Of a stretch of DNA of 64,000 nucleotides, positions 2,524-34,719 are shown piece by piece; position 1 is the stretch's first letter; each line of letters starts with the position of its first letter. The stretch comes from Rhizophagus irregularis (lineage: Eukaryota > Glomeromycota > Glomeromycetes > Glomerales > Glomeraceae), in NCBI RefSeq assembly GCF_026210795.1, contig NC_089452.1, forward strand, positions 2,108,001 to 2,172,000. The letters are read 5' to 3'. A model generated the notes under the pieces. It was not told the origin of the DNA, did not search any database, and saw nothing but the letters and a program-made list of their open reading frames with translations. The translations under genes were made by a program, and so were the position numbers.

Positions 2524-5500
2524 TTACATACCTAATGGCTTCATATCTTCAATTATACAATCATTCAAATCTTCACTTAGTGGCATTTCATTTGCTTTTA
2601 CACTAGCTTGTGAATCTTCATTTTCAAGTATTTCATTCAACTTTTTACTAGTATTTTCATCTATAATTAAGTAAATAAATTAATTTCACATATACAATTT
2701 GCAAGATTAATTTTTTATATATTATAGTACATACCAAATGACCTTGGATCTCTAATTATGAAGTTATTCAAATCTTCACTTTCAAGAATTTCATTCAATT
2801 CTTTACTATTAAAATCAAGTAAACGACTCGCATAACATGCTTTAGGATGAGATTTAGTAACAAGATTGTTATGCCGCCTAATTGGTGCATTTATAAATTC
2901 CATAATGTTGCTTTTTAATTCTTCACTGACACTATAAGGACGGAAAATCCATTTTTTAATAATTTTTAATACTTCTATAGAAACTGGTCTTTTTAATGGA
3001 TCTTCATTCCAACATTTTTTCATTAAATCTACATAACATTGTGGAGTATTTTCAATAATTTCAGGTCGTTCACCTTTAGAGATACTTAAACTAAGTTGAA
3101 AATCATGCGCTCTATTATTAAATGGTGGTATTCCAGATGTAAACTCCCACATAATCATAGAAAAACTATATATATCACTAGCTGGAGTATAAGGTTTGCC
3201 TCTTAAAACTTCAGGAGCCATAAATGGTATAACACCATAAATATCATACTTTTTCAAAAACGATTTTACAGGTTGACATAATCCTAAATCACTAATATAA
3301 ATTTTATCACTATCCCCATCATAAACATGATTTAAAATATTACCATCATGAAAATCACAATGAATAAGTTTTTCTCCATGTATCTTACTAAGTCCAGAAA
3401 TAATTTCGTACAACATATGTAACTTTTGATTCCAATTATTTTTGACTATTCTTGTTAAATTTTCTCTTAAATTACCTTTATTTGCATAATCCATTACTAC
3501 CATATATTTTGATGTATTTGGATCTTCTGTGAATCCATAAAATAATATAATATTATTTGAACTTAAACACTTTTCATGATATTTCCACTATAAAAAATAA
3601 TAATAATTATTAATATAAATAAATTTTAATTTAAATTAAAAATAGAAAATAATATATTATCATACTTCTTCTAAAAATTTATTCAAATTTTCATCTAAAT
3701 TCTTGTGACATTTAAGAATTACTTCTTTATCTCTATTATTCTTTAACCAAATAGCTTTGTATATAGTACCAAATCCTCCTTCATTAAGATACTCAACATT
3801 TTTAAATTTGTTATAAGGAATCCATTTTAATCTATTTTTAAGAATAAAATCATCTATAATGGCATTTCCACTTTTTCCAAATCTATAAATTTAAATAATT
3901 AAAATTATATAATAGATTGTATTATAATTTATATATACAAAATAAATTATTACTTACTCTAAAATTTAAATAGGAATTTAATGCAATATGAGTCTTGATT
4001 TTTAGATAAATACATATAATAACCTATGATTTACAACTTACCAACTAAGTAACAGATATTTTTTAAATGAAAGAATTTGGTTAACAAATAAATATTATAA
4101 AATATATAACAATAGAGATACTTACAAGCTAGATCATAAATAATTTTTTAAAATAAAAAAATTAGTTAGTTTAAATTATATGTAAATATTATAATAGAAT
4201 TAAATAAATAACTTACAAGCTATATTATTTAATAATTTTTTAAATAAAGAAATTAGTTAAATTATATGTAAATATTATAACAATAAGTAATAATAGAATT
4301 AAATAAACAACTTATAACTTACGATCTATTAAATAAAAAAATTAGTTAGTTTAAATTATATGTAAATATTATAAAAATAAGTAATAATAGAATTAAATAA
4401 ATAACTTACCTATGAAATAATTTTTTAAATAAAGAAATTAGGTTAGTTTAGTTTAAATTATATGTAAATATTATAACAATAAGTAATAATAGAATTAAAT
4501 AAATAACTTACCCCCTATATTATTTAATAATTTTTTAAGTAAAGAAATTAGTTAGTTTAAATTATATGTAAATATTATAACAATAAGTAATAATAGAATT
4601 AAATAAATAACTTACACCCTAGTTAGTTTAAATTATATGTAAATATTATAAAAATAAGTAATAATAGAATTAAATAAATAACTTACGAGCTATATTATTT
4701 AATAATTTTTAAATAAAGAAATTAGTTAGTTTAAATTATATGTAAATATTATAACAATAAGTAATAATAGAATTAAATAAATAACTTACGAGCTATATTA
4801 TTTAATAATTTTTTAAATAAAGAAATTGGTTAGTTTAAATTATGTAAATATTATAACAATAAGTAAAATAATAGAATTAAATAAATAACTTACACACTTT
4901 ATTATTTATTAATTTTTTAAATAAAGAAATTAGTTAGTTTAAATTATATGTAAATATTATAACAATAAGTAATAATAGAATTAAATAAATAACTTACTCC
5001 CTATATTATTTAATAATTTTTTAAATAATGAAATTAGTTAGTTTAAATTACTATATGTAAATATTATAACAATAAGTAATAATGAATTAAATAAATAACT
5101 TACCATCTATGAAATAATTTTTTAAATAAAGAAATTAGTTAGTTTAAATTATATGTAAATATAATTAAATAAATAACTTATGGCTTACCAACTAAAATAA
5201 ATTACAAAATAATTTTTTAAATAAAGAAATTAGTTAGTTTAAATTATATGTAAATATTATAACAATTAGTAATAATAAAATTAAATAAATAACTTACGAG
5301 CTATATTATTTAATAATTTTTTAAATAAAGAAATTAGTTAGTTTAAATTATATGTAAATATTATAACAATAACAGATAAGTAATAATAGAATTAAATAAA
5401 AAACTTACCATCTATGAAATAATTTTTAAATGAAGAAATTAGTTAGTTTAAATTATATGTAAATATTATAACAATATGTAATAATAAAATTTAATAATTA

Positions 5501-8500
5501 ACTAATGACTTACCAACTAAAATAAATTACAAAATAATTTTTTAAATAAAGAAATTAGTTAGTTTAAATTATATGTAAATATTATAAAAATAAGTAATAA
5601 TAGAATTAAATAAATAACTTACATTCTATATTATTTAATAATTTTTTAAATAAAGAAATTAGTTAGTTTAAATTATATATAAATATTATAACAATAAGAA
5701 ATAATAGAATTATATAACTTACGATCTATTAAATAAAATTATTAGTTAGTTTAAATTATATGTAAATATTATAACAATAAGTAATAATAGAATTAAATAA
5801 ATAACTTACACCCTATATTATTTAATAATTTTTAAATAAAACAATTAGTTATTTTAAATTAGGAATATGTTTTTTTTCACAACTGCGATATGTCGCGTCT
5901 CCCTTTTTTGGTAATTTTTTATATTAATTGTCAATCATTCTTATCACATGACTTCGTCAAGATTTCCCATTTTTAAAAAATCCTGGCGTGAGACCAGTGT
6001 TAATTTTTCGATAAAAAGTTACTGTGCGGATGGCGCACAATTTGTTGTGCGTCAAAGTGGTATGGCTATACTACTATAATAGGTACTGTAATACATATGC
6101 GCCCAATCACATAAGGATATTTCAAAATTTTTTGTGCGCATGCCGCACATCCTTTCTAAAAAAGGTGTGCGCAAAATTCTGATCATGTGCGCTGCGAACA
6201 TGCCGCACAGTGAAAAATAAACACTGCGTGAGACCTTATGCACTTACTATGTACTATAAGAAACCTTATACTATGCGTATTTTTGACCTCTCTACAAGTT
6301 TTCTTAATATATCAAAAAGGATTAAGAATGTCATTTTTGATATTTATATGTAACATATTATAGGGGTGCGACATAACGCAGGTGCAATAAAAAGCAAAAC
6401 CCTTTAAATATTATAACAATAAGTAATAATAGAATTAAATAAATAACTTACGAGCTATATTATTTAATAATTTAAATAAAGAAATTAGTTAGTTCAAATT
6501 ATATGTAAATATTATGACAATAAGTAATAATAGAATTAAATAAATAACTATAACTTACAATCTATTAAATAAAGAAATTAGTTAGTTCAAATTATACGTA
6601 AATATTATAACAATAATTAATAATAAAATTGAATAAATAACTTACGAGCTATATTATTTAATAATTTTTAATGAAATTAGTTAGTTTAAATTATATGTAA
6701 ATATTATAACAATAATAATAGAATTAAATAAAAAACTTACCATCTATGAAGTAATTTTTGAATGAAGAAATTAGTTATTTAAATTATATGTAAATATTAT
6801 AACAATAAGTAATAATAAAATTAAATAAATAACAAATGACTTACTAACTAAAATAAATCACAAAATAATTTATTAAATAAAGAAATTAGTTGGTTTAAAT
6901 TATATGTAAATATTATAACAATAAGTAAAATAATAGAATTAAATAAATAACTTACATCCTATATTATTTATTAATTTTTTAAATAAAGAATTGGTTAGTT
7001 TAAATTATATGTAAATATTATAATAATAAGTAATAATAGAATTAAATAAATACTTACCCCCTTATTTAATAATTTTTTAAATAAAGAAATTAGTTAGTTT
7101 AATTATATGTAAAGATTATAACAATAAGTAATAATAGAATTAAATAAATAACTTACACGCTATATTATTTATTAATTTTTTAAATAAACAAATTAGTTAG
7201 TTTAAATTATATGTAAATATTATAACAATAAGTAATAATAGAATTAAATAAATAACTTACTCCCTATATTATTCAATAATTTTTAAATAAAGTGATTAGT
7301 TAGTTTAAATTATATAATAATAAGTAATAATAGAATTAAATAAATAACTTATAACTTACAATCTATTAAATAAATAAAGAAATTAGATAGTTAAATTAAA
7401 TGTAAATATTATAACAATAAGTAATAATAGAATTGAATAAATAACTTACCAACTATTAAATAAATAAAGAAATTAGATAGTTTAAATTATATGTAAATAT
7501 TATAACAATAAGTAATAATAGAATTAAATAAATAACTTACCATCTATAATATTTAATAATTTTTTAAATAAACAAATTAGTTAGTTTAAATTATATGTAA
7601 ATATTATAACAATAAGTAATAATAGAATTAAATAAATAACTTACTCCCTATATTATTTATTAATTTTTTAAATAAAGAAATTAGTTAGTTTAAAATATAT
7701 GTGAATATTATAACATGAGTAATATATAATAGAATTAAATAATTACTTACCATCTATGAAATAATTTTTTAATAAAGAAATTAGTTAGTTTACATTATAA
7801 TAACAATAAGTAATAATAGAATTAAATAAATAATTTACCATCTATGAAATAATTTTTATAAATAAAGAAATTAGTTAGTTTAAATTATATGTAAATATTA
7901 TAACAATAAGTAATAATAGAATTAAATAAATAACTTACTCCCTATATTATTTAATAACTTATTAAATAAAGAAATTATATAAGTAATATAAATATAGATA
8001 TCATAATAACTTACACCCTGTAGTATTATTTAATTATTAATTAGTTAGATATAAAGATAATATAAAGTATTTACTGTAAATTATATATATTACTTACAAT
8101 CTAGTTATTTAAATTAAGAATATGATTAGTTGAATTATGTAAATATTAAATAAATAAATATATACATATTGTAACTTACCATCTGTAATATAATTTTTAT
8201 TAAATAGTTATTTAAATAAAGAATTTAGTTATTTGAATTTTATATAAAATAAATAAAATAAAAAACTAAAGATTTCAATAACTGATAACTTACCAACTAC
8301 AGTATTATTAATCATTAAATAAATTATTTAGTTATATGGAATACAATAAAAATAATAAGTATTTGAATAGATAGTATTTGAATTGTTTATAAATAAAAGT
8401 TTAATATTTCAGCCTTTTTTATATACCTTTAGATTCCTCAGTGTCACTTCCCTCAAATTCTCCTCCACTTTCTTCAAATTCTTCTATATTACTGGAAACT

Positions 8501-9321
8501 TGTTTTGTTATATTGCAAATTTGGTTTAATTATATTTGATTATTTACAATCAAATTTTTTTAATAAATAAAAATCTTAATATTTCAACTTTGTTTTGTAT
8601 ATTATATTTACCTTCAGGTTTTTTGATATCACACAAAACTAGTATTATTATATTGCAAGTTTATTTGTTTTAAAAATTTTGAATAATTCTAATTTATATT
8701 ATTATTCATGTTATATGCTTTACCTTTACCCTTGGTATCATTTCCTTCAAATTCCTCAATACTACTTCTTTTAAATTCTTCAGTGCCACTTCCCTCAAAT
8801 TCTCCAATTCCACTTTCTTCAAATTCTTCTATATTACTGGAAACTAGTTTTGTTATATTGCAAATTTGGTTTAATTATACTATTTGATTATTTACAATCA
8901 AATTTTTTTAATAAATAAAAATCTTAATATTTCAACTTTGTTTTGTATATTATATGTACCTTCAGGTTTTTTGATATCACACAAAACTAGTTTTATTATA
9001 TTGCAAGTTTATTTGTTTTAAAAATTTTGAATAATTCTAATTTATATTATTATTCATGTTATATGCTTTACCTTTACCCTTGGTATCATTTCCTTCAAAT
9101 TCCTCAATACTACTTCTTTTAAATTCTTCAGTGCCACTTCCCTCAAATTCTCCAATTCCACTTTCTTCAAATTCTTCTATATTACTGGAAACTAGTTTTG
9201 TTATATTGCAAATTTGGTTTAATTATTTACAATTAAATTTTTTTAATAAATAAAAATTTTAATATTTCAACTTTGTTTTGTATGTTATATTTACCTTCAG
9301 GTTTTTTGACATCACGCAAAA
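2524..9321 (-). CDS. Protein kinase gene with a single-codon exon array (minus-strand copy)
   Basis: The kinase domain comes from exons 3882-3666 and 3587-2735, followed by 2660-2524. Landmarks: Gly-rich loop NEGGFGTIYKA, Lys in EVILK, catalytic loop HCDFHDGN (HxD..N kept), DLG in place of DFG, and APE. All key residues for activity are present. The family resembles the large tyrosine-kinase-like set of Glomeromycotina. Upstream, six phase-1 exons (9321-9295, 9191-9072, 8986-8960, 8843-8724, 8638-8612, 8498-8427) encode an acidic Glu/Ser/Phe-rich repeat. Between them and the kinase lie 38 three-base exons, one zero-base junction and a one-base exon at 3958. The phases add up: phase-1 end, 3n, plus 1, then the phase-2 start of the kinase exon. 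The true start codon was not found; it is upstream of 9321 or unseen. The last codon may be TAA at 2524, or a further intron may begin at 2531 (GTATGT). Kinase assignment is firm; the 5' model is inference. Confidence 0.75.
5862..6402. mobile_element. MITE with CGCACCTGCGAT-type inverted ends, inside one array intron
   Basis: The left end (AACTGCGATATGTCGCG near 5881) and the right end (GCGACATAACGCAGGTGCAA near 6367) are inverted copies. They match the ends of the element at 9836-10068. The flanks TTTAAATTA and TTTAAATA look like a target duplication in the intron body. The insertion lies between triplets 6452 and 5810 and does not touch a splice site. It contains a second element at 5995-6226. 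Confidence 0.65.
5995..6226. mobile_element. hAT-type MITE nested in another MITE
   Basis: It starts CAGTGTT and ends AACACTG, the classic hAT terminal motif. It is flanked by an exact 8-bp duplication CGTGAGAC (5987-5994 and 6227-6234). Inside the ends, GTGCGG...CGCACA blocks are again inverted. At 232 bp it has no coding capacity; the open frame at 6052-6243 is incidental. Confidence 0.85.
8427..9321 (-). repeat. Tandem duplication of an exon pair (27 nt + 120 nt)
   Basis: A unit of about 340 bp occurs in close to three copies. Each has a 27-nt exon (9321-9295, 8986-8960, 8638-8612; reading LCDIKKPE or LRDVKKPE) and a Glu/Phe/Ser-rich exon (9191-9072, 8843-8724, 8498-8427, the last shortened to 72 nt). 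All six exons start and end in phase 1, so copies can be added without breaking the frame. Copies two and three are nearly identical, which points to recent duplication. Confidence 0.75.
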
Positions 9322-9835
9322 CTAGTTTTATTATATTGCAAGTTTGTTTTAAAATTTTGAATAATTCTAATTTATATTATTATTCATATTATATGCTTTA
9401 CCTTTTACAATTAGGGAGAATTTTGATATAGTAATGGGCCAATGTATTGGTAAAGATAAAGCAAATATCTTTTTTTCTTTTTATTTATTATTATTAAACG
9501 CTTTTATTAGTATGAATAAATGTGATAACAATATTAATGCAAAATGCATTAATGTGCAAAGGCGTTGATCACAAGTACATGCATTTTAATAAATAAATAA
9601 ATTTAGAGCTCCGAACGGGTCAGGTCAGGTCGGGTAATTGACTTGACCCGACAGAGGTGGGACATAAATTGATGACCCGACCCGAATATCACGGATTGTG
9701 TCAGCCTATTTTTTTACATTTATAATTTTGTATAATTTTTTTTCATTTATTAGATTATTCTAATGATGGCGTGAGTGGCGTGAGTTATATTTCAAGCATC
9801 GTAAAAATGTAAATAAAAAAATAAACCAAAAAAAA
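9322..9835. other. Kinase upstream region with GC-rich repeat islet
   Basis: A minus-strand frame near 9470-9410 ends in AAAAG followed by GTAAAGC at 9403, the same donor as in the duplicated exons, so an additional upstream exon is possible. At 9605-9710 a GC-rich islet carries CGGGTCAGGTCGGGT and its complement GACCCGACCCGAA. It starts with AGAGCTCCG, as does the islet at 27225, and is probably a short transposon remnant. Confidence 0.4.
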
Positions 9836-18570: not shown

Positions 18571-19514
18571 TTAGATTGAGAAATATTCACTACGTAATTC
18601 TGGTAGATGTCGACAAGTTGCTCCATGTTGACATTTTGCACATAATTTTCTTATATGAGGCTTTTCGCTGTCCGATAATTCAAGAGGTTTGTAATTAGAG
18701 ATGGTGCAGTTATCATTATTATTTTTCTTACATTTCTTACAATTTTGCATAAAAAAATCGCCTTGAACCAAATGCTTTTGTTCTATAAACTTTTGAAGTG
18801 AAACCCAAGTATAAGCGCTACTCCATCTATTTTGACAATTCAAGCATTTCCAATTGCCGAAAACTCTATAATGATTATTCCATTCCAAGTGACGGGTTAT
18901 TTCGATGGTGGGATCTTTCTATAAAAGTTTTAATTTTTTTAGTATAGTACAATACAAAAAATTTTCGCACCGTATTTAAAAAAAGGTAAACTCCCTTTCG
19001 AATTGTATGATGGACATTGCAGCCGAAAACTCGTGATTAAATTCATTTTTCTCGTTCCGTCATCTTTATTACATTTCTCACAGCGCTTCCAAAAAAAAAC
19101 TGTACATAATTTTCGGAATTTCCAGATACTTTCTGAGTATATCGTTTGTATATTGAATTTTCCATTCATGTTTCTTTTCACATAACCAATACCCATGTAC
19201 TATATAATTATTGTTATTTACTAAGTGACGGATGATTTCGATAATCTAGGGGGAAAAAATTAGAAATTTTTTTATTTCACTAAAAACTTTTACATTATTT
19301 GTTCTGTGTAATATGTGAACGATATCATGAATTCATAATTAATTTAACTACTTACTTGTTGTTGTTCCTCTCGTTCTCGTTCTTCGGACCTCTTACGTAT
19401 TCTCATAATCGGAATCTGTAAAAATAATTCTTTTTCAGCATTTTCATTTCCTCTTTTACCACAATTTTCATCCCATTTAACGCTAACTTCTTTATTATTA
19501 AAGATATTCTCCAT
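18571..19514 (-). CDS. 3CxxC-type zinc-finger protein, possibly damaged copy
   Basis: Exon 19514-19356 (ATG, Arg/Glu-rich end, donor GTAAGT) and exon 18918-18571 are clear. The latter encodes a zf-3CxxC-like segment: FGNWKC..C, W.SAYTW.SLQKF, CKKCKK, CAKCQ and C..L. It closely resembles the intact neighbour ending at 21189. The middle part, starting at 19245 (IIEI.RHLV), runs into stop codons near 19085. Either it is decayed, or it is skipped early using a GTACAT donor near 19202, which would keep phase 0. The family binds zinc through CxxC pairs; in animals related RTP proteins help receptor transport, but no such role is implied here. The C-terminal exon is well supported; the whole gene is uncertain. 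Confidence 0.6.
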
Positions 19515-21188
19515 GATTTAACATATTTCTGCAATTACGAAATACGAATGTATTTTTCTTTTTTTTCAAAAAAGAGTTGGTGCTTTGGTGGGAAAGTGAC
19601 TAAAATAGGGAATAACATTAAATATTAGTTTATTCTCTATTTAGTTAAATCTAATTCGATTAATTTTATTGATTCGTAGTCACGTGAATTACGTTTTTTA
19701 TTTGAGGATTTTAAACTTTTTTAAACAATTAAGGAAAAATGACGCACCGCTCAGTCGAAAGACCTTTTTTAAAATATTAAATCTTTATAACTTTACACGT
19801 ACGCCACAATTCTTAGTAACCATTTTAAAGCGCTGTAACACAAAAATAAGTATAAGCGGATAAAACAAAATACCGTATTTTTGATTTAGTGTATTGAAAC
19901 CTAAAATCAATTAATATGTGTTAATCTTTGCATAAAATAAAATAAAACGGTCGTCTTCTCGTTCTGTTAACAAAAAATATATAGCAACGAAAAGAAATTA
20001 AGCTTCCACTCACACTAATTAACTGTAATTTTCACGATCATTTCTCAACATTTACATTTATTATCCTGACGGTCGATCTTTTTCGTCTTAAATAGCAACT
20101 TTCCAATGTACAAAGAGAACGTGTTATTGTTCGTGGTCATTTTGAAGCCTTTCTTCGCAAACTTGAGAAAAAATTTATGATACTAGAGCAGCAGGTTACA
20201 ATTATAATACATTGATATAAGAGTTCCTATGAACTGGAAGATCAACTTGTAAAACCTCTTACAACGAACGTACTAATCGATCGTTAGTTGAAACTATTCG
20301 GTGTTGAAGTTGATAATAAATCTCATAATTGGAGATAGTTCCAACTAGAAACAAACAAGTATTGAAAGGATTTTATATTACTTGGAAATCTAACTGGTAT
20401 ATACAGTACATTACTCAGTGTATAATTTTTATATATATTTATTTATTTATTGCTTTTTATAAAGAGAACGTAATATTTAATTATAAGTATACCCAAAAGT
20501 CAACATAAAACAAAATTGATTTTGAATCCGAGATATTTCATTATGGTATTCCATTCATGATAATGTACAATGGAATAAGGATATCGATAAATAGGTCATA
20601 GTTTTAAAATATTACCATAATCCATTTCTTATTTGATATGAGCTTCAACGGTAATTTGACAGAAGCGTTTTCGAAAATACTAGTCTAAATAGCCTGAATA
20701 TATTAAATGAAAGTTCGTCTTGTTTAAATGATGAATTTAAAAATTTTGGTTAAACAATTATTTGAAGTAAGCGCACATTCATATCGTCGTACGACTTTTT
20801 ATAATGTAAAAAAATTGTTGTAAGTACTAAATTTAATTTTTTCGTCACAATCAGCAATTCACCTTTCTCAAGTGTCAACCCATATAAAAAAACAATCATG
20901 AAACGTATTATATTTAGAATAAAGAAATAAGAAGATTTTATTTAAAAGAATAATAATTGAAAAAAAAATTTCATTAACAGAACACAACATTCGGTTGAAC
21001 TCGTCAGCCGAGCATGGACTCAAGCCAATTGAACAATGATAGTGTTATATATAGTATTAGTAAATAAAGAAAGCAAAACAACCCTTGCCAATTTTACCAA
21101 AAATACAATGAGCAAAAAAATATTTGATAAAAAAAATCATAAATTCTTTCCTGACTAGCTTGTACTGTATTATTACTATAATTTGGCA
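19515..21188. other. Intergenic between two zinc-finger copies
   Basis: AT-rich. A 39-codon Glu/Arg/Lys-rich frame at 20096-20215 has no start and no partner exons. No other coding or repeat structure that I can support. Confidence 0.4.
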
Positions 21189-22786
21189 TCATATGTACTG
21201 ATATCCAAAGTAGGTGCCGCTTTCAAAACACTCATAGCCACGCTTACATTTTTCACATAAATGCCTTTTGTGCTCTCCACTCTCCGATCGTACTAAAGGT
21301 TTGTAACTCGAGATAATGCCATCGTTACCGCACGTTCGTTCCTTGCACTTCTGCATAACATAATCACCCTTTAAACATTGTTTTCCTGTAGCTTTCGTTA
21401 TAAACTTTTGAAGCGATATCCAAGTATAGGCGCTCCTCCATTTCTTTTGACAACGCGAACACTTCCAATTACCGAATACTCTGTAATAGTGATTCCATAC
21501 TAGGTGGCGGATTATCTCTAGATCGGGCTTCTATTGAGTGACAAATTTTAGTAGAATTTTTTTTGCATTTCAAAAACAAAAATATTTGCAATCACAACTT
21601 GACCTACATTTGAATTTTCTGACGTGTACAATAAGAAACTCGAAATCAGGTTTTCATGATTATTTTCGCAAGCCTGAAAAAATTCTAACCATCCTGTCCG
21701 CCTTTCCGAAATTACTTCTAGACTCTTTTTAAGTAATTCTTGATCATACCGTTTTCGCCATTCGAGTTTGCAATTGTTTTCAGTTTGCCATTTCCTTTTA
21801 AATTTATTTCGACACTCCATTACACTTTGGCATTGTGATTTGTGTTTACATTTACCACTATATAATAATTGCAAATCATCTAACTTATTTCTGTATTCGC
21901 ATTTTTCTCTTGATATACATTGCAGCGGCTTTTTGTGTTCGCATTTCCATTGATGACAAAACCAATAGCCATGAACTATATAACTCTTATTATGGACTAG
22001 GTTACGGACAATTTCGATAATCTATGAGATAAATATTAACAGAATGTAAAGATAATTCTCTGAAATGAAATTCACTACACATATATGTATATATATTTGC
22101 ACAAATTAACCTACTTGTTCTTTTTCTAATTCGTACATTTTTTTGATTCTTTCGATTTTTAATCTGCCGAATTTTTTTTCAATCAGTTCGTATTTTCTTT
22201 CAACCTGTAATTTTTCTAGTTCGTATGTACTTTCAGCCTGTTCTTTTTCTAGTTCATAATTTTTTTCAACCCGTTCTTTTTCTAGTTCATATTTTCTTTC
22301 AATTCTCTCGTTTTTCAATCTGTTGTATTTTCTTTTAACTTTTTCTTTTTCTAGTTCATATTTTCTCTCGACCTGCTCTTTTTCTAGTTCGTATATTCTT
22401 TCAATCTGTTCTTTTTCTAGTTCATATTTTTTTTCGATTTCCTCGATTTCAAATCTGAAACTTTCGGTAACATTCAATAGTGAGGCATAACATTCTTCCC
22501 AATTAAATGGAGTGTCCCAATTACTTTCTTCCAGATCATTCATTGGAAAATCCCAACCACCTATTGTAACTGGAGTATCACTTTCTTCCAAATAACTAAC
22601 TGGGAAATTCCATCCACCTAATGTGAATGACGTATCATTTTCTTCCAAACTATTCACTGGGCTACTTATTGTGACTAGGGCAATATTTTCCTCCAAGTTG
22701 GACACTACACATTCATTAATTAAAGTATTACTTTTATCACATTCTGTGGTATCTTGACAATTTTCTTTTTCCGACATTTGTTTCAA
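21189..22786 (-). CDS. Coiled-coil protein with C-terminal 3CxxC-type zinc finger
   Basis: The model joins 22786-22115, 22021-21608 and 21530-21189: 1,428 nt, 475 residues, introns GTAGGT...AG, phases consistent. Residues about 20-95 hold three copies of a LEE.(N/D)..(V/I/F)T.GGW.FP-type repeat. Residues about 110-224 form a charged coiled coil built on YELEKEQ(V/I)ER repeats. Exon 2 opens IIEIVRNLV..HGYWFCHQWKC and has several Cys. Exon 3 opens EIIRHLVW..YRVFGNWKCSRC and has the CxxC pairs of the zf-3CxxC family (NWKCSRCQKKW, CLKGDYVMQKC, CEKCKRG). The two Cys-rich exons look like an internal duplication. The coiled coil suggests self-association; function unknown. It is the intact member of a three-copy cluster. 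Confidence 0.82.
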
Positions 22787-29455: not shown

Positions 29456-32400
29456 GAAGAATTTGATATATTAATGGATCATAAAGGTAATCATACAACA
29501 TAAATATATAATATAGAATTACATCAAAATTTTTAAACCATTTTGCAAATATAAACTAACTATATTATATATAAAAATTATATTAAATATTTTAGCCCGT
29601 AAGTTAATAGGTTATCTTATAATTAAATAAAATTAAATAATACTAGTAAAATTAATTATTATTTTCATTATATTCTGTGTAATTAAATAATTTATTTAAT
29701 GATTAATAATACTATAGTTTGTAAGTTATCAGTTATTTAAATTTTTAGGTTTTTACTATTTATTTTACGTAATATTCAAATATCTAAATTCTTTGTTTAA
29801 ATAACTAATTAATTATATTACAGCTGGTAAGTTATAATACTTAAGAATGTTATATTTAATATTATACTTATTTATTAATATTTTAATATAATTTAACTAA
29901 TTATATTCTTAATTTAAATAAATAGATTGTAAGTAATCTATTCAATTTATAGTGAATATCTTTCTATTATATTTATATTTAACTAATTAAAAATTAATAA
30001 TAATTCAGGGTGTAAGTTATATGATGTCTATATTTCTATTGTTATACAATTTAAGCTAACTAAGTTTCTTTATTTAAAAAATTATTTTATAGATGGTACG
30101 TTATTTATTTAATTCTATTATTACTTATCGTTATAATATTTACATATAATTTAAACTAACTAATTTCTTTATTTAAAAAATTATTTAAATAATATAGGGA
30201 GTAAGTTATTTATTTAATTCTATTATTACTTATTGTTATAATATTTATATATAATTTAAATTAATTAAATTTCTTTATTTAAAAAATTATTTAAATAATA
30301 TAGTTCGTAAGTTATTTATTTAATTCTATTATTACTTAGTGTTCATATAATTTAAACTAACTAAATTTCTTTATTTAAAAAATTATTTAAATAATATAGT
30401 TCGTAAGTTATTTATTTAATTCTATTATTACTTAGTGTTCATATAATTTAAACTAACTAAATTTCTTTATTTAAAAAATTATTAAATAATATAGGGAGTA
30501 AGTTATTTATTTAGTTCTATTATTACTTATTGTTATAATAATTTAAATTAACTAAATTTCTTTATTAAAAAAATTATTTAAATAATATAGGGAGTAAGTT
30601 ATTTATTTAATTCTATTATTACTTATTGCTATAATATTTACATATAATTTAAACTAACTAAATTTCTTTATTTAAAAATTATTTAAATAATATAGGAAGT
30701 AAGTTATTTAATTCTATTATTACTTATTGTTATATATTTACATATAATTTAAACTAACTAAATTTCTTTATTTAAAAATTATTTTGTAATTTCTTTTAGT
30801 TGGTAAGTTATAAGTATTTATTTAATTCTATTATTACTTTATTTACATATAATTTAAACTACTAACTAAATTTCTTTATTTAAAAAATTATTTAAATAAT
30901 ATAGGGAGTAAGTTATTTATTTAATTCTATTATAACTTATAGTCATAATATTTATATATAATTTAATTTAACTAAATTTCTTTATTTAAAAAATTATTTT
31001 ATAGGTGGTATGTTATTTATTTAATTCTATTATTACTTATTGTTATAATATTTACATATAATTTAAACTAACTATTTAAAAAATTATTTAAATAATATAG
31101 GGAGTAAGTTATTTACTTAATTATATTATTACTTATTGTTATAATATTTATATATAATTTAAATTAACTAAATTTCTTTATTTAATAGATTGTAAGTCAT
31201 AAGTTATTTATTTAATTCTATTATTACTTATTGTTATAATATTTACATATAATTTAAATTAACTAAATTTCTTTATTTAAAAAATTATTTAAATAATATA
31301 GGGAGTAAGTTATTTATTTAATTTTATTATTACTTATTGTTATAATATTTACATATAATTTAAACTAACTAAATTTCTTTATTTAAAAAATTATTTAAAT
31401 AATATAGTTCGTAAGTATTTATTTAATTCTACTATTACTTATTGTTACAATATTTACATATAATTTAAACTAACTAAATTTCTTTATTTAAAATATTATT
31501 TAAATAATATAGGGAGTAAGTTATTTATTTAATTCTATTATTACTTATTGTTTTACATTTAATTTAAACTAGTAACTAAATTTCTTTATTCAAAAAATTA
31601 TTTTGTAATTTCTTTTAGTTGGTAAGTCATAAGTTATTTATTATTACTTATTGTTATAATATTTACATATAATTTAAACTAACTAAATTTTTTTATTTAA
31701 AAATTTATTTTATAGATGGTATGTTATTTATTTAATTCTATTATTACTTATTGTTATAATATTTACATATAATTTAAATTAACTAAATTTCTTTATTTGA
31801 AAAATTATAGATGGTACGTTATTTATTTAATTCTATTATTACTTATTGTTATAATATATTTACATATAATTTAAACTAACTAAATTTCTTTATTTAAAAA
31901 ATTATTTAAATAATATAGGGAGTAAGTTACTTATTTAATTCTATTATTACTTATTGTTATAATATTTACATATAATTTAAACTAACTAAATTTCTTTATT
32001 TAAAATATTATTTAAATAATATAGGGAGTAAGTTATTTATTTAATTCTATTATTACTTATTGTTATAATATTTACATATAATTTAAACTAACTAAATTTA
32101 TTTAAAAAATTATTTTATAGATGGTACGTTATTTATTTAATTCTATTATTAGTACTTATTGTTATAATATTAACATATAATTAAACTAACTAACTTTCTT
32201 TATTTAAAAAATTATTTTATAGATGGTACGTTATTTATTTAATTCTATTATTACTTATCTGTTATTGTTATAATATATAATTTAATTTAACTAAATTTCT
32301 TTATTTAAAAAATTATTTTATAGATAGTACATTATTTATTTAATTCTATTATTACTTATTGTTATAATATTTACATATAATTTAAATTAACTAAATTTCT

Positions 32401-34719
32401 TTATTTAAAAAATTATTTAAATAATATAGGAAGTAAGTTATTTATTTAATTCTATTATTATTTATTGTTATAATATTACATATAATTTAAACTAACTAAA
32501 TTTCTTTATTTAAAATAATATAGGGAGTAAGTTATTTATTTAATTCTATTATTACTTACTGTTACAATATTTACATATAATTTAAACTAACTAAATTTCT
32601 TTATTTAAAAAATTATTTAAATAATATAGGGAGTAAGTTATTTATTTAATTCTATTATAACTTATTGTTCATATAATTTAAACTAACTAAATTTCTTTAA
32701 TTAAAAAATTATTTAAATAATATAGGAAGTAAGTTATTTATTTAATTCTATTATTACTTATTGTTATAATATTACATATAATTTAAACTAACTACATTTC
32801 TTTATTTAAAAATTATTTTATAGATAGTACGTTATTTATTTAATTTATTATGGATAAATCTAATTGTAACAGCCTGTTACGCGTCTTATTTGTAACAACC
32901 CTCAATTTTATCCAATTAAAATTTAAGATCAGGCGTAATGTAAACAAAAGATCAGTCGTGTAACTAAGACAAAAGAATTTTTTAAAAAATTTCAAGAAAT
33001 TGCTTATAACTTAAAATTTTGTCTATGAAACTTTCTTAAGTACATTAAGTAAAAGTTTTCCAAATTAAATTTTGCATATAAAAACTTTATTTGTAAAACA
33101 CATACTAAATTTATTATTAAAAAAAAAATAAAAAAAGGATGTTACAAATAAGATATGTAACAGGCTGTTACAAATACATTTATTCTTTTATTATTACTTA
33201 TTGTTATAATATTTACATATAATTTAAACTAACTAAAATCTTTATTTAAAAAATTATTTAAATAATATAGCTTGTAAGTTATTTATTATTTCTATTGTTA
33301 TATATTTATTAAATATTTATTTGCTAACTGTATTCTTTTATTCTAAAATTTCTATTACTTTAGTTGGTAAGTTATGAAATATAGCTTATTAGCATTATAT
33401 ATATTTATACAAAAACTAAGACATATATTATCTTAAATTCCTATTTAAATTTAAGAGTAAGTGTTAATTTTTTAGTGTAAATTTTATTATAAACTTTTAT
33501 ATAATTTTAATTATTTAAATTTATAGATTTGGACAAAGTGGAAACAAAATCATAGATGAATTTATTCTCGAAAAAGAGTTAAAATGGATTCCTTATGATA
33601 AATTTAAAAATGTTGAATATCTTAATAAAGGAGGATGTGGTACTATATACAAAGCTATTTGGCCAAATAATGATGGAGATAGAGAAGTAATTCTTAAATG
33701 TCATAATAATTTAAATGAAAATTTAAATGAATTTTTAAATGAAGTATGATAGTATATTATTATTTTTTTAATTTAAATTATAATTTACTTATATTAATAT
33801 ATTAATATTTTTTTAGTGGAAATATCATGAAAGTTGTTTAGGTTCATATGAAATTATTTATTTTTATGGATTTACAAAAAATCCAGATACTTTGAAATAT
33901 ATGGCAGTAATGGATTATGCAAACAAAGGTAATTTAAGAGGAAACTTAACAAGAATAATCAAAAGTGGTTGGAGTCAAAAATTATGCATGTTGTATGAAA
34001 TTATTTCTGGACTTAAAAATATACATAATCAAAATCTTATTCATCATGATTTTCATGATGGCAATATTTTAAATCATGGTGAGAATAAGATTTATATTAG
34101 TGATTTAGGATTATGTCAACCTGTAAAATCATTATTGAAAGAACATAATATTTATGGTGTTGTACCATTTATGGCACCTGAAGTATTGAGAGGCAAACCT
34201 TATACTCCAGCTAGTGATATATATAGTTTTTCTATGATTATGTGGGAATTTACATCTGGAATACCACCATTTAATGATAGAGCACATGATATTCAACTTA
34301 GTTTAAGTATTTGTGAAGGTGAACGTCCTGAAATTATTGAGACTACTCCACAATGCTATGTTGATTTGATGAAAAAATGTTGGGATGAAGATCCATTAAA
34401 AAGGCCATCTTCTAAGGAAGTTTCAAAAATTTTTAATGAATGGATTTCTCTTCCTTATGATAAAAAAATTGAAGACATTAATGAAGAATTAAAATGCAAT
34501 ATTATGGAATTTATAAATTCACCAATTGGGCATAACAATCTTACTACTGAATCTCACTCACAGGCTTACTGTACAAGTCGCTTACTTAATTTTACTAGTA
34601 AACAATTGAATGAAATTCTTGAAAGTAAAAATTCACAAACTAGTGTACAAGTAAGTGAAATGTTAGTAAGCAAAAATTTGAATGAATGTATGCTTGATTT
34701 GAAGAAATTAGGTATGTAA
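29456..34719 (+). CDS. Protein kinase gene with a single-codon exon array (plus-strand paralogue)
   Basis: Exon 29456-29486 (31 nt, reading EEFDILMDHK and ending in phase 1) is followed by 35 three-base exons, a one-base exon A at 33456, then 33527-33743 and 33817-34719. The kinase domain shows NKGGCGTIYKA, Lys in EVILK, HHDFHDGN, DLG and APE, so catalytic residues are kept. The loop has Cys for the usual Phe. The C-terminal tail repeats LNEILESKN/LNECMLD-like words. The stop is TAA 34717, or splicing continues from GTATGT at 34712. It is about 80% similar by eye to the minus-strand copy and shares its intron positions and phases. The start codon is upstream and not identified. Role: probably a serine/threonine or dual-specificity kinase; partners unknown. 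Confidence 0.75.
29596..33457 (+). repeat. Tandem intron array with 3-nt exons (plus strand)
   Basis: Triplets between AG and GT, by start: CCC 29596, TTT 29718, CTG 29824, ATT 29926, GGT 30009, ATG 30093, GGA 30198, TTC 30304, TTC 30400, GGA 30495, GGA 30591, GAA 30696, TTG 30800, GGA 30905, GTG 31005, GGA 31101, ATT 31189, GGA 31302, TTC 31408, GGA 31513, TTG 31619, ATG 31716, ATG 31811, GGA 31919, GGA 32025, ATG 32121, ATG 32223, ATA 32324, GAA 32430, GGA 32524, GGA 32630, GAA 32726, ATA 32824, CTT 33271, TTG 33364, then single A 33456. Introns carry GTAAGT (or GTACGT, GTATGT, GTACAT), ACTAAC, TTTCTTT and TATAG. The first units are well diverged in body but keep the splice signals and the spacing. 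Confidence 0.85.
32852..33186. mobile_element. MITE inserted in an array intron, TGTAACAGCCTGTTAC ends
   Basis: ATAAATNTANTTGTAACAGCCTGTTAC at the left and its complement at the right form inverted ends of about 45 bp. TTTATTAT flanks both sides (32844-32851 and 33187-33194), an 8-bp duplication, though low in complexity. It sits in the intron between triplets 32824 and 33271 and leaves splice signals intact. Confidence 0.7.

Follow-up and report, generated by a model that had tools for sequence, protein, structure and literature searches.

In a 64,000-nt stretch of the genome of the arbuscular mycorrhizal fungus Rhizophagus irregularis (contig NC_089452.1, forward-strand positions 2,108,001 to 2,172,000; hereafter the window), we found two genes in which a predicted protein kinase is preceded by a long row of exons of exactly three nucleotides: 38 in gene 1 (locus W1) and at least 34 in gene 2 (locus W2). 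We consider it probable, at about 0.88, that ordinary GT-AG introns of approximately 100 nt alternate with three-base exons in these rows and are spliced in order into the kinase mRNA, transcription and splicing being what we infer from the DNA. The exon length, the phase, the avoidance of stop codons, the hypervariability and the linkage to kinases were established by computation. The array of gene 1 had been flagged in a first-pass annotation as a run of three-base exons upstream of a kinase domain, and was confirmed on the minus strand from 8296 to 4042. The array of gene 2, of like build on the plus strand (29474-33456), was absent from that annotation and precedes a paralogous kinase. The core features of both genes, in window coordinates, are as follows.

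4042..8296, minus strand: gene 1 array of 38 three-nt exons at AG-NNN-GT joints, from TTG at 8296-8294 to TTG at 4044-4042.
3958..3958, minus strand: gene 1 one-nucleotide exon A (AG-A-GTAAGT), from the joint listing and a signature search.
3666..3882, minus strand: gene 1 first kinase exon, starting FGKSGNAIIDDF, ends placed by eye.
2715..3587, minus strand: gene 1 main kinase open reading frame (ORF), Pfam PF07714, E 1.4e-32.
29474..29486, plus strand: gene 2 exon 1, ATGGATCATAAAG, ending in phase 1; similar start exons were seen by eye in 16 other loci, all 1 mod 3 in length.
29596..33366, plus strand: gene 2 array of 34 called three-nt exons (CCC TTT CTG ATT GGT ... CTT TTG).
32324-32326, plus strand: likely 35th triplet of gene 2, ATA, with a weak donor GTACAT, by eye.
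33456..33456, plus strand: gene 2 one-nucleotide exon A, leading from phase 1 to phase 2.
33527..33743, plus strand: gene 2 first kinase exon, starting FGQSGNKIIDEF, read in phase 2, end placed by eye at a GTATGA donor.
33817..34719, plus strand: gene 2 main kinase ORF to its stop, Pfam PF07714, E 6.3e-33.

Both window genes matched Pfam family PF07714 with 114.6 and 113.5 bits (cut-off 23.1), and the kinases EGFR, RIPK1, MLT, Kit and TAK1 were among the best 60 of 923 PDB sequences. By these Pfam and PDB matches the kinases of the family are classed as tyrosine-kinase-like. The kinases of gene 1 and gene 2 were called paralogues because their exons are near-identical. Inspection by eye located the motifs VILK, HHDFHDGN or HCDFHDGN, SDLG and MAPE in both, which we take to be the beta-3 lysine, HxD, DFG-like and APE motifs of kinases with predicted activity.

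A search of the 32 contigs of the genome (146.7 Mb) returned 1,516 exact copies of the unit motif AGNNNGTAAGTTATTTATTTAATT and none of its reversed control. The 3′ signature of the arrays, TTTAAATTTNAG followed by the one-base exon A and the donor GTAAGT, was present at 84 sites (control: 0), and for 80 of these a family kinase match follows on that strand at a distance of no more than 1 kb. The kinase matches, 151 of which 150 were used, are a lower bound, and the query was partly a composite. A kinase-exon pattern was found at 87 sites. Joints with a gap of 0 to 12 nt occurred at 1,110 places; among the 100 matches listed, 99 had a gap of three and one a gap of four. Taking every third signature site gave 28 loci, one of them a window gene; the remaining 27 together with W1 and W2 form a set of 29, which is a systematic sample of loci with the exact 3′ signature only. 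A single locus held as many as 70 of the 3-nt exons, whereas the short members L010 and L011 have 9 and 8 triplets, and a rough extrapolation (872 exons called per 273 motif matches in the 29 loci, scaled to 1,516) suggests approximately 4,800 one-codon exons in the genome. Loci L016 and L020 look like remnants, as the signature is present without an array and the kinase frames are broken. Five extra arrays were chosen for having no exact 3′ signature: four of them run into a kinase ORF, three with a one-base exon, and the piece fetched for the fifth ended inside the array, with a kinase match approximately 0.8 kb beyond (C2:647511-647738). Introner elements are similar introns scattered among unrelated genes. 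Assembly error was set aside, the pattern being present on many contigs. A second kinase subfamily, of the RFGTSGSKIVDQF type, was seen in L028, L029 and L030, also with triplet arrays and a one-base exon; L028 carries in addition a 228-codon ORF that is coiled-coil in look.

Exon lengths were called using a dynamic-programming parser that scores intron bases only (8 at the donor and 16 at the acceptor) and leaves exon bases unscored; its length penalty, log2(L+1), is mild and does not favour 3 over 0, 1 or 2. Across the 29 loci, 872 of the 892 parsed exons were 3 nt long, compared with 2 of 22 on the antisense strands of the same loci and 0 of 24 on one shuffle in 2-base blocks, so that the regular spacing reported at first pass is indeed beyond chance. 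The other exons measured 6 nt (five), 0 nt (two, one in W1 and one in L005), 1 nt (one), 2 nt (four), 8 nt (one) and 23-121 nt (seven, some of which are merged units). The parser merged the last three exons of W1 and missed two weak W1 exons, the last TTG of L017 and the likely ATA of W2. Without the length penalty 870 of 899 exons were 3 nt, but true acceptors were swallowed into long exons. The array introns had a median length of 99 nt (95th percentile 162), and all three residues modulo 3 were populated (304/254/305). Among 830 introns 55-200 nt long, 83% had a branch-site-like CTAAC, TTAAC or CTAAT at branch-site distance, versus 21% after shuffling; for the looser YTAAY these values were 92% and 68%.

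Exon 1, recognised by eye in 17 loci, was 13, 19, 22 or 25 nt long, a length of 1 mod 3 in every case. Encoding for example MGQCIGK or MDQCIK, this exon would end one base into a codon, so that each three-nt exon would supply two bases that finish one codon and a single base that opens the following one. The single-codon exon of the first-pass annotation thus survives as one codon per exon, with the amendment that codons are split across junctions and do not lie inside an exon. With the triplets in phase 1 and the one-base exon leading to phase 2, the codon ahead of FGKSGN takes its last base from the start of the kinase exon; the final one-base exon would accordingly be the shift of phase that places the kinase exon in frame. 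In 14 of the 17 loci with a recognised exon 1 the frame stayed open from the ATG across the array and over 160 nt of the kinase exon, including L003 with 63 triplets, W2 with 34 and L011 with 8. The standard code reads through, and a changed genetic code or frameshifting was set aside as not needed. The exon 1 sequences of L001, L019, L022 and L025 give the N-termini MGQCIS, MGQCIG or MGQYIG, which we take to resemble acylation signals; others start MDQ or MAL.

The strongest evidence came from stop codons at the junctions, a test that is independent of the splice signals. Exons other than 3 or 6 nt were dropped as segment breaks, which left 35 segments with 884 triplets; 6-nt exons were halved, L016 and L020 gave no junctions, and W1 was treated as one run across its zero-nt joint and insert, with the exon at 7060 entered by hand. 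In the predicted phase a single stop was found at 849 consecutive junctions, against 24.2 expected (standard deviation 3.9); when triplets were shuffled inside their arrays the minimum was 9 stops, and 0 of 10,000 shuffles were as low as the observed 1. The other two phases contained 4 and 145 stops (shuffles 3.9 and 116.5). A triplet ending in T was followed by an exon beginning AA, AG or GA in 1 of 230 cases, compared with 36 of 211 after A, 26 of 177 after C and 36 of 231 after G (Fisher p 1.8e-13). The result held without W1 and W2 (1 stop at 779 junctions, 23.1 expected) and with each pair counted once per array (1 at 683 versus 23.2, minimum 11 in 2,000 shuffles, one W1 triplet being placed 3 bases off). 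Of the 18 arrays in which at least 0.5 stops were expected, 17 had none and L014 had one. Bases approximately 100 nt apart therefore act as neighbours within one codon, and the simplest cause would be a translated mRNA in which the exons are joined in order and these bases come to lie side by side. This lends support to the first-pass proposal of real introns under selection whose triplets would form a chain of one-residue exons.

The gene 1 array is less perfect than had been described. A gap of three does separate AG and GT at 38 joints, but one joint (ATAG/GTAAGT at 4409/4410) has a gap of zero. A gap of one, said never to occur inside the array, does occur at its 3′ end (3958), as the frame requires at that point. 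The row, described as tandem with intact splice signals, is split by an unrelated insert of approximately 540 bp, and includes a weak donor GTAAAT after 7841-7839 and the acceptor TAAG before 7060. Further features of this gene are given below.

5860..6400 (ends approximate), strand not applicable: insert in an intron of the gene 1 array, with terminal inverted similarity, resembling a miniature inverted-repeat transposable element by eye.
9321-9295, 8986-8960 and 8638-8612 (within 8427..9321), minus strand: gene 1 upstream 27-nt exons.
9191-9072, 8843-8724 and 8498-8427, minus strand: gene 1 upstream exons of 120, 120 and 72 nt.
9434..9455, plus strand (gene on the minus strand): gene 1 start exon, flipped at its own position (the plus strand reads ATGGGCCAATGTATTGGTAAAG), the same as exon 1 of L022.

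The upstream 27-nt exons alternate with those of 120, 120 and 72 nt; all lengths are multiples of three and the translation is acidic (EEFEGSGTEEF). A 348-bp repeat, present in three copies at 8427-9405, carries these exons. With one phase base (G) supplied in front, the gene 1 model was open through six upstream exons, 38 triplets, the A and 160 nt of the kinase exon, with no stop. As its start exon is inverted, this copy may have lost its start and perhaps no longer makes the full protein. The inverted exon (window 9403-9455) has short inverted similarity on its flanks. Gene 2 (29474-34719) was open from its own ATG into the first kinase exon. Array introns of the window hold two unrelated inserts, that at 5860-6400 and another at about 32850-33180, and the intron before the kinase exon of L008 seems to contain an insert with a similar beginning. 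Elsewhere in the window, the minus strand of 18571-22021 holds a row of ORFs of similar make (RHLxWNxxYRVFGNWKC), of which 18571-18918 matches Zn_ribbon_3CxxC by Pfam.

Within the arrays the triplets are far more variable than their surroundings. Where two joints of one array had identical 15-nt flanks, the triplets differed in 634 of 935 pairs, compared with 2-21% for control 3-mers taken inside introns under the same flank condition; in L023, 11 different triplets lay between identical 10-nt flanks in one array. The ends of the chain were mostly kept. ATT GGT (D-W) was present in 23 of the 29 loci, lying within the chain in L024, and 21 of the 29 parses finished with TTG (F-E); W1 and L017 also end in a TTG, which that parse missed. 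The hypervariability is therefore no property of one-codon exons as such. The last intron had a mean identity of 83% among 26 loci, so that this region is not free of change. The tail differed among all 14 open models and ranged from 1 to about 65 residues, one example being the predicted tail of L015, DWYDDVDHHHHLVAFEFGK. The first two bases of the triplets were commonly AT, TT, GG, CT or AG; apart from AG, these match the end exons CTT, TTG, ATG, ATT and GGT, which suggests that the arrays grew from them. The middle base was mostly T or G in all sampled arrays. Position -2 of a donor is usually A, and we have no explanation for the T or G beyond descent from a few founder exons.

We read the interior triplets as being under diversifying selection. 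A competing view, which we regard as unlikely, is that the exons are translated but their triplets vary through a local mutational or recombinational process, the tail being a tolerated spacer with no role in recognition. Such a spacer is compatible with splicing of the one-codon exons and competes only with selection and recognition. It would agree with the lack of a shared motif seen in the tails of the open models and with the 394 of 1,522 differing pairs (flanks of 10) in which all three bases had changed. It does not account for the end codons, which sit in exons of this type and yet are largely conserved, nor for the distribution of single-base differences, which numbered 75 at codon position 1, 42 at position 2 and 23 at position 3, the codon-third base thus changing least, though this base may be held by splicing.

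Several points weigh against spliced one-codon exons shaped by selection. The training set of the splice-site matrix consisted of 852 joints with a gap of three, albeit with exon bases unscored, and the start exons were chosen by eye. Three of the 17 models were not open: L005 with two 2-nt exons, L007 with one 2-nt exon and L014 with one stop, where the script missed the kinase exon and an insert is present. No usable start exon was found in 12 of the 29 loci: L002, L018 and L021 extend to the limit of the sequence fetched, L017 carries ATA in place of ATG, the W1 exon is inverted, L016 and L020 are the array-less loci, and none was recognised in L004, L008, L023, L024 and L027. Because units were duplicated in blocks, the junctions are not independent, a structure that controls made by skipping exons share. 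A search for an intron-less join of TTG, A and kinase exon found none, so no spliced retrocopy backs the joins. Hypervariability could partly reflect mutation. Finally, we know of no precedent for the splicing of 60-odd introns with 3-nt exons.

It is also conceivable, but improbable, that the exons are real and that each gene yields many isoforms by exon skipping. Skipping would be frame-neutral, with nearly all exons 0 mod 3 and in one phase, and a 3-nt exon was the smallest alternatively spliced exon known in 2015 (PMC4674806). Against this, stops were not avoided at junctions that jump one, two, three or four exons (24 of 814, 26 of 779, 19 of 745 and 19 of 714, respectively). Selection would therefore see mainly the full chain, though some skipping may still occur.

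We consider it very improbable that the arrays are spliceable minisatellites, that is, one long intron or leader in which the repeat unit carries splice signals incidentally and no triplet ever enters a protein. Neutral expansion of tandem repeats, the zero-gap joint and the insert in the row of W1 would fit. In a minisatellite a triplet should be independent of its neighbour approximately 100 bases away, yet stops were missing in one frame and between consecutive exons only; nor does it predict that 872 of 892 gaps remain at three amid drifting intron lengths, or that 14 of 17 models are open. We give hardly any credence to zero-residue recursive splicing, with the joints as ratchet points for removing a long intron, for although the two zero-length joints have the form of zero-nucleotide recursive sites (PMC13149111), they are only two of 892, and the window arrays span approximately 4 kb where such sites typically lie in introns of more than 10 kb (same source).

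For spliced one-codon exons we propose the following mode of growth and processing. The unit of one intron and one triplet would multiply by tandem duplication, which adds whole codons, so that the tail could lengthen, shorten and reshuffle without a frame break; with codons straddling the junctions, reshuffled units would also make new residues. The chain would in most loci begin with an A-F/L-D-D-W type sequence and end F-E, with the variable tail between them. Selection would purge neighbours in which T is followed by AA, AG or GA and would favour unlike triplets in adjacent units. Short introns favour intron definition, and the arrays would probably be spliced in this manner and stepwise, so that every step would gain three bases and uncover the following donor, much like recursive splicing that leaves one codon behind. 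Introns three bases apart could hardly be removed at once, which makes stepwise removal likely. Stepwise removal has been proposed for the one-base exon of APC11 (PMC4674806).

From the hypervariability, the conserved ends and the kinase linkage together we draw a doubtful though not far-fetched prediction, namely that the tail would serve in recognition or docking and would diversify, each paralogous kinase thereby having a partner or an input of its own. A broader scheme, which we put forward tentatively, is diversification one residue at a time through duplicable intron units, whereby some 80 or more paralogues with different tails may act as recognition kinases (self/non-self, nuclear or host) in an arbuscular mycorrhizal fungus.

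If transcripts confirm these models, the spliceosome would be able to link three-base exons faithfully by the dozen, one after another, with consequences for the question of exon versus intron definition and for minimal exon size; the duplication of one-residue, frame-safe units between introns would, if true, be a new route to protein diversity. Exons of 3 nt could easily escape standard gene finders and long-read aligners, and annotated N-termini in part of the large kinase repertoire of this plant symbiont may then be wrong. For R. irregularis DAOM197198, 2,533 kinase members on 32 chromosomes have been reported, with long reads for the expression map aligned at a maximum intron length of 3,000; the passages of that paper on the kinase repertoire make no mention of one-codon exons (PMC10234402). 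Plant microexons are widely misannotated (PMC8831610), and according to a 2024 abstract no functional microexons had previously been described in filamentous fungi (PMC11121469). Among the literature matches listed, with subscription papers and preprints outside the scope, we found no report of one-codon exons in a row, nor any of micro-exons in Rhizophagus.

The closest known system is that of the micro-exon genes (MEGs) of Schistosoma mansoni, which likewise form a variable gene family with many very short exons in a row, their lengths mostly multiples of three (PMC10526429). According to the same source, MEGs have 10-20 exons of 6-81 bp (3-81 in the abstract), mostly 15 bp, with introns of 0.1-5 kb, and encode secreted proteins with a signal peptide, whose variants arise mainly by alternative splicing. 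In the arrays described here, unlike in MEGs, the exons are exactly 3 nt and number up to 70, the introns are tandemly repeated, a kinase follows and there is no sign of selection for skipping. Whereas coding lies mostly in short exons of 3n length in MEGs, here such exons make up the N-terminal tail only, with the kinase in long exons, and the median intron of 99 nt falls short of the long introns of MEGs. The predicted N-termini MGQCIGK, MDQCIK and MALNNDK contain no hydrophobic stretch, as judged by eye only. One-base exons that are needed for the frame are known from Arabidopsis APC11, plant VPS55 and Fusarium CYP621A (PMC4674806, PMC8831610, PMC12940212); there the exon stands alone in a conserved gene, whereas here it closes a row of 3-nt exons. 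A 3-bp exon is likewise present in Drosophila homothorax, where it is single, alternative and conserved, with no array (PMC7392893). Recursive splice sites have zero nucleotides between AG and GT and lie in a long intron, which does not describe these joints. The stepwise use of AG/GT joints is likely common to recursive splicing (PMC13149111) and to these arrays, but here each joint would leave a codon behind.

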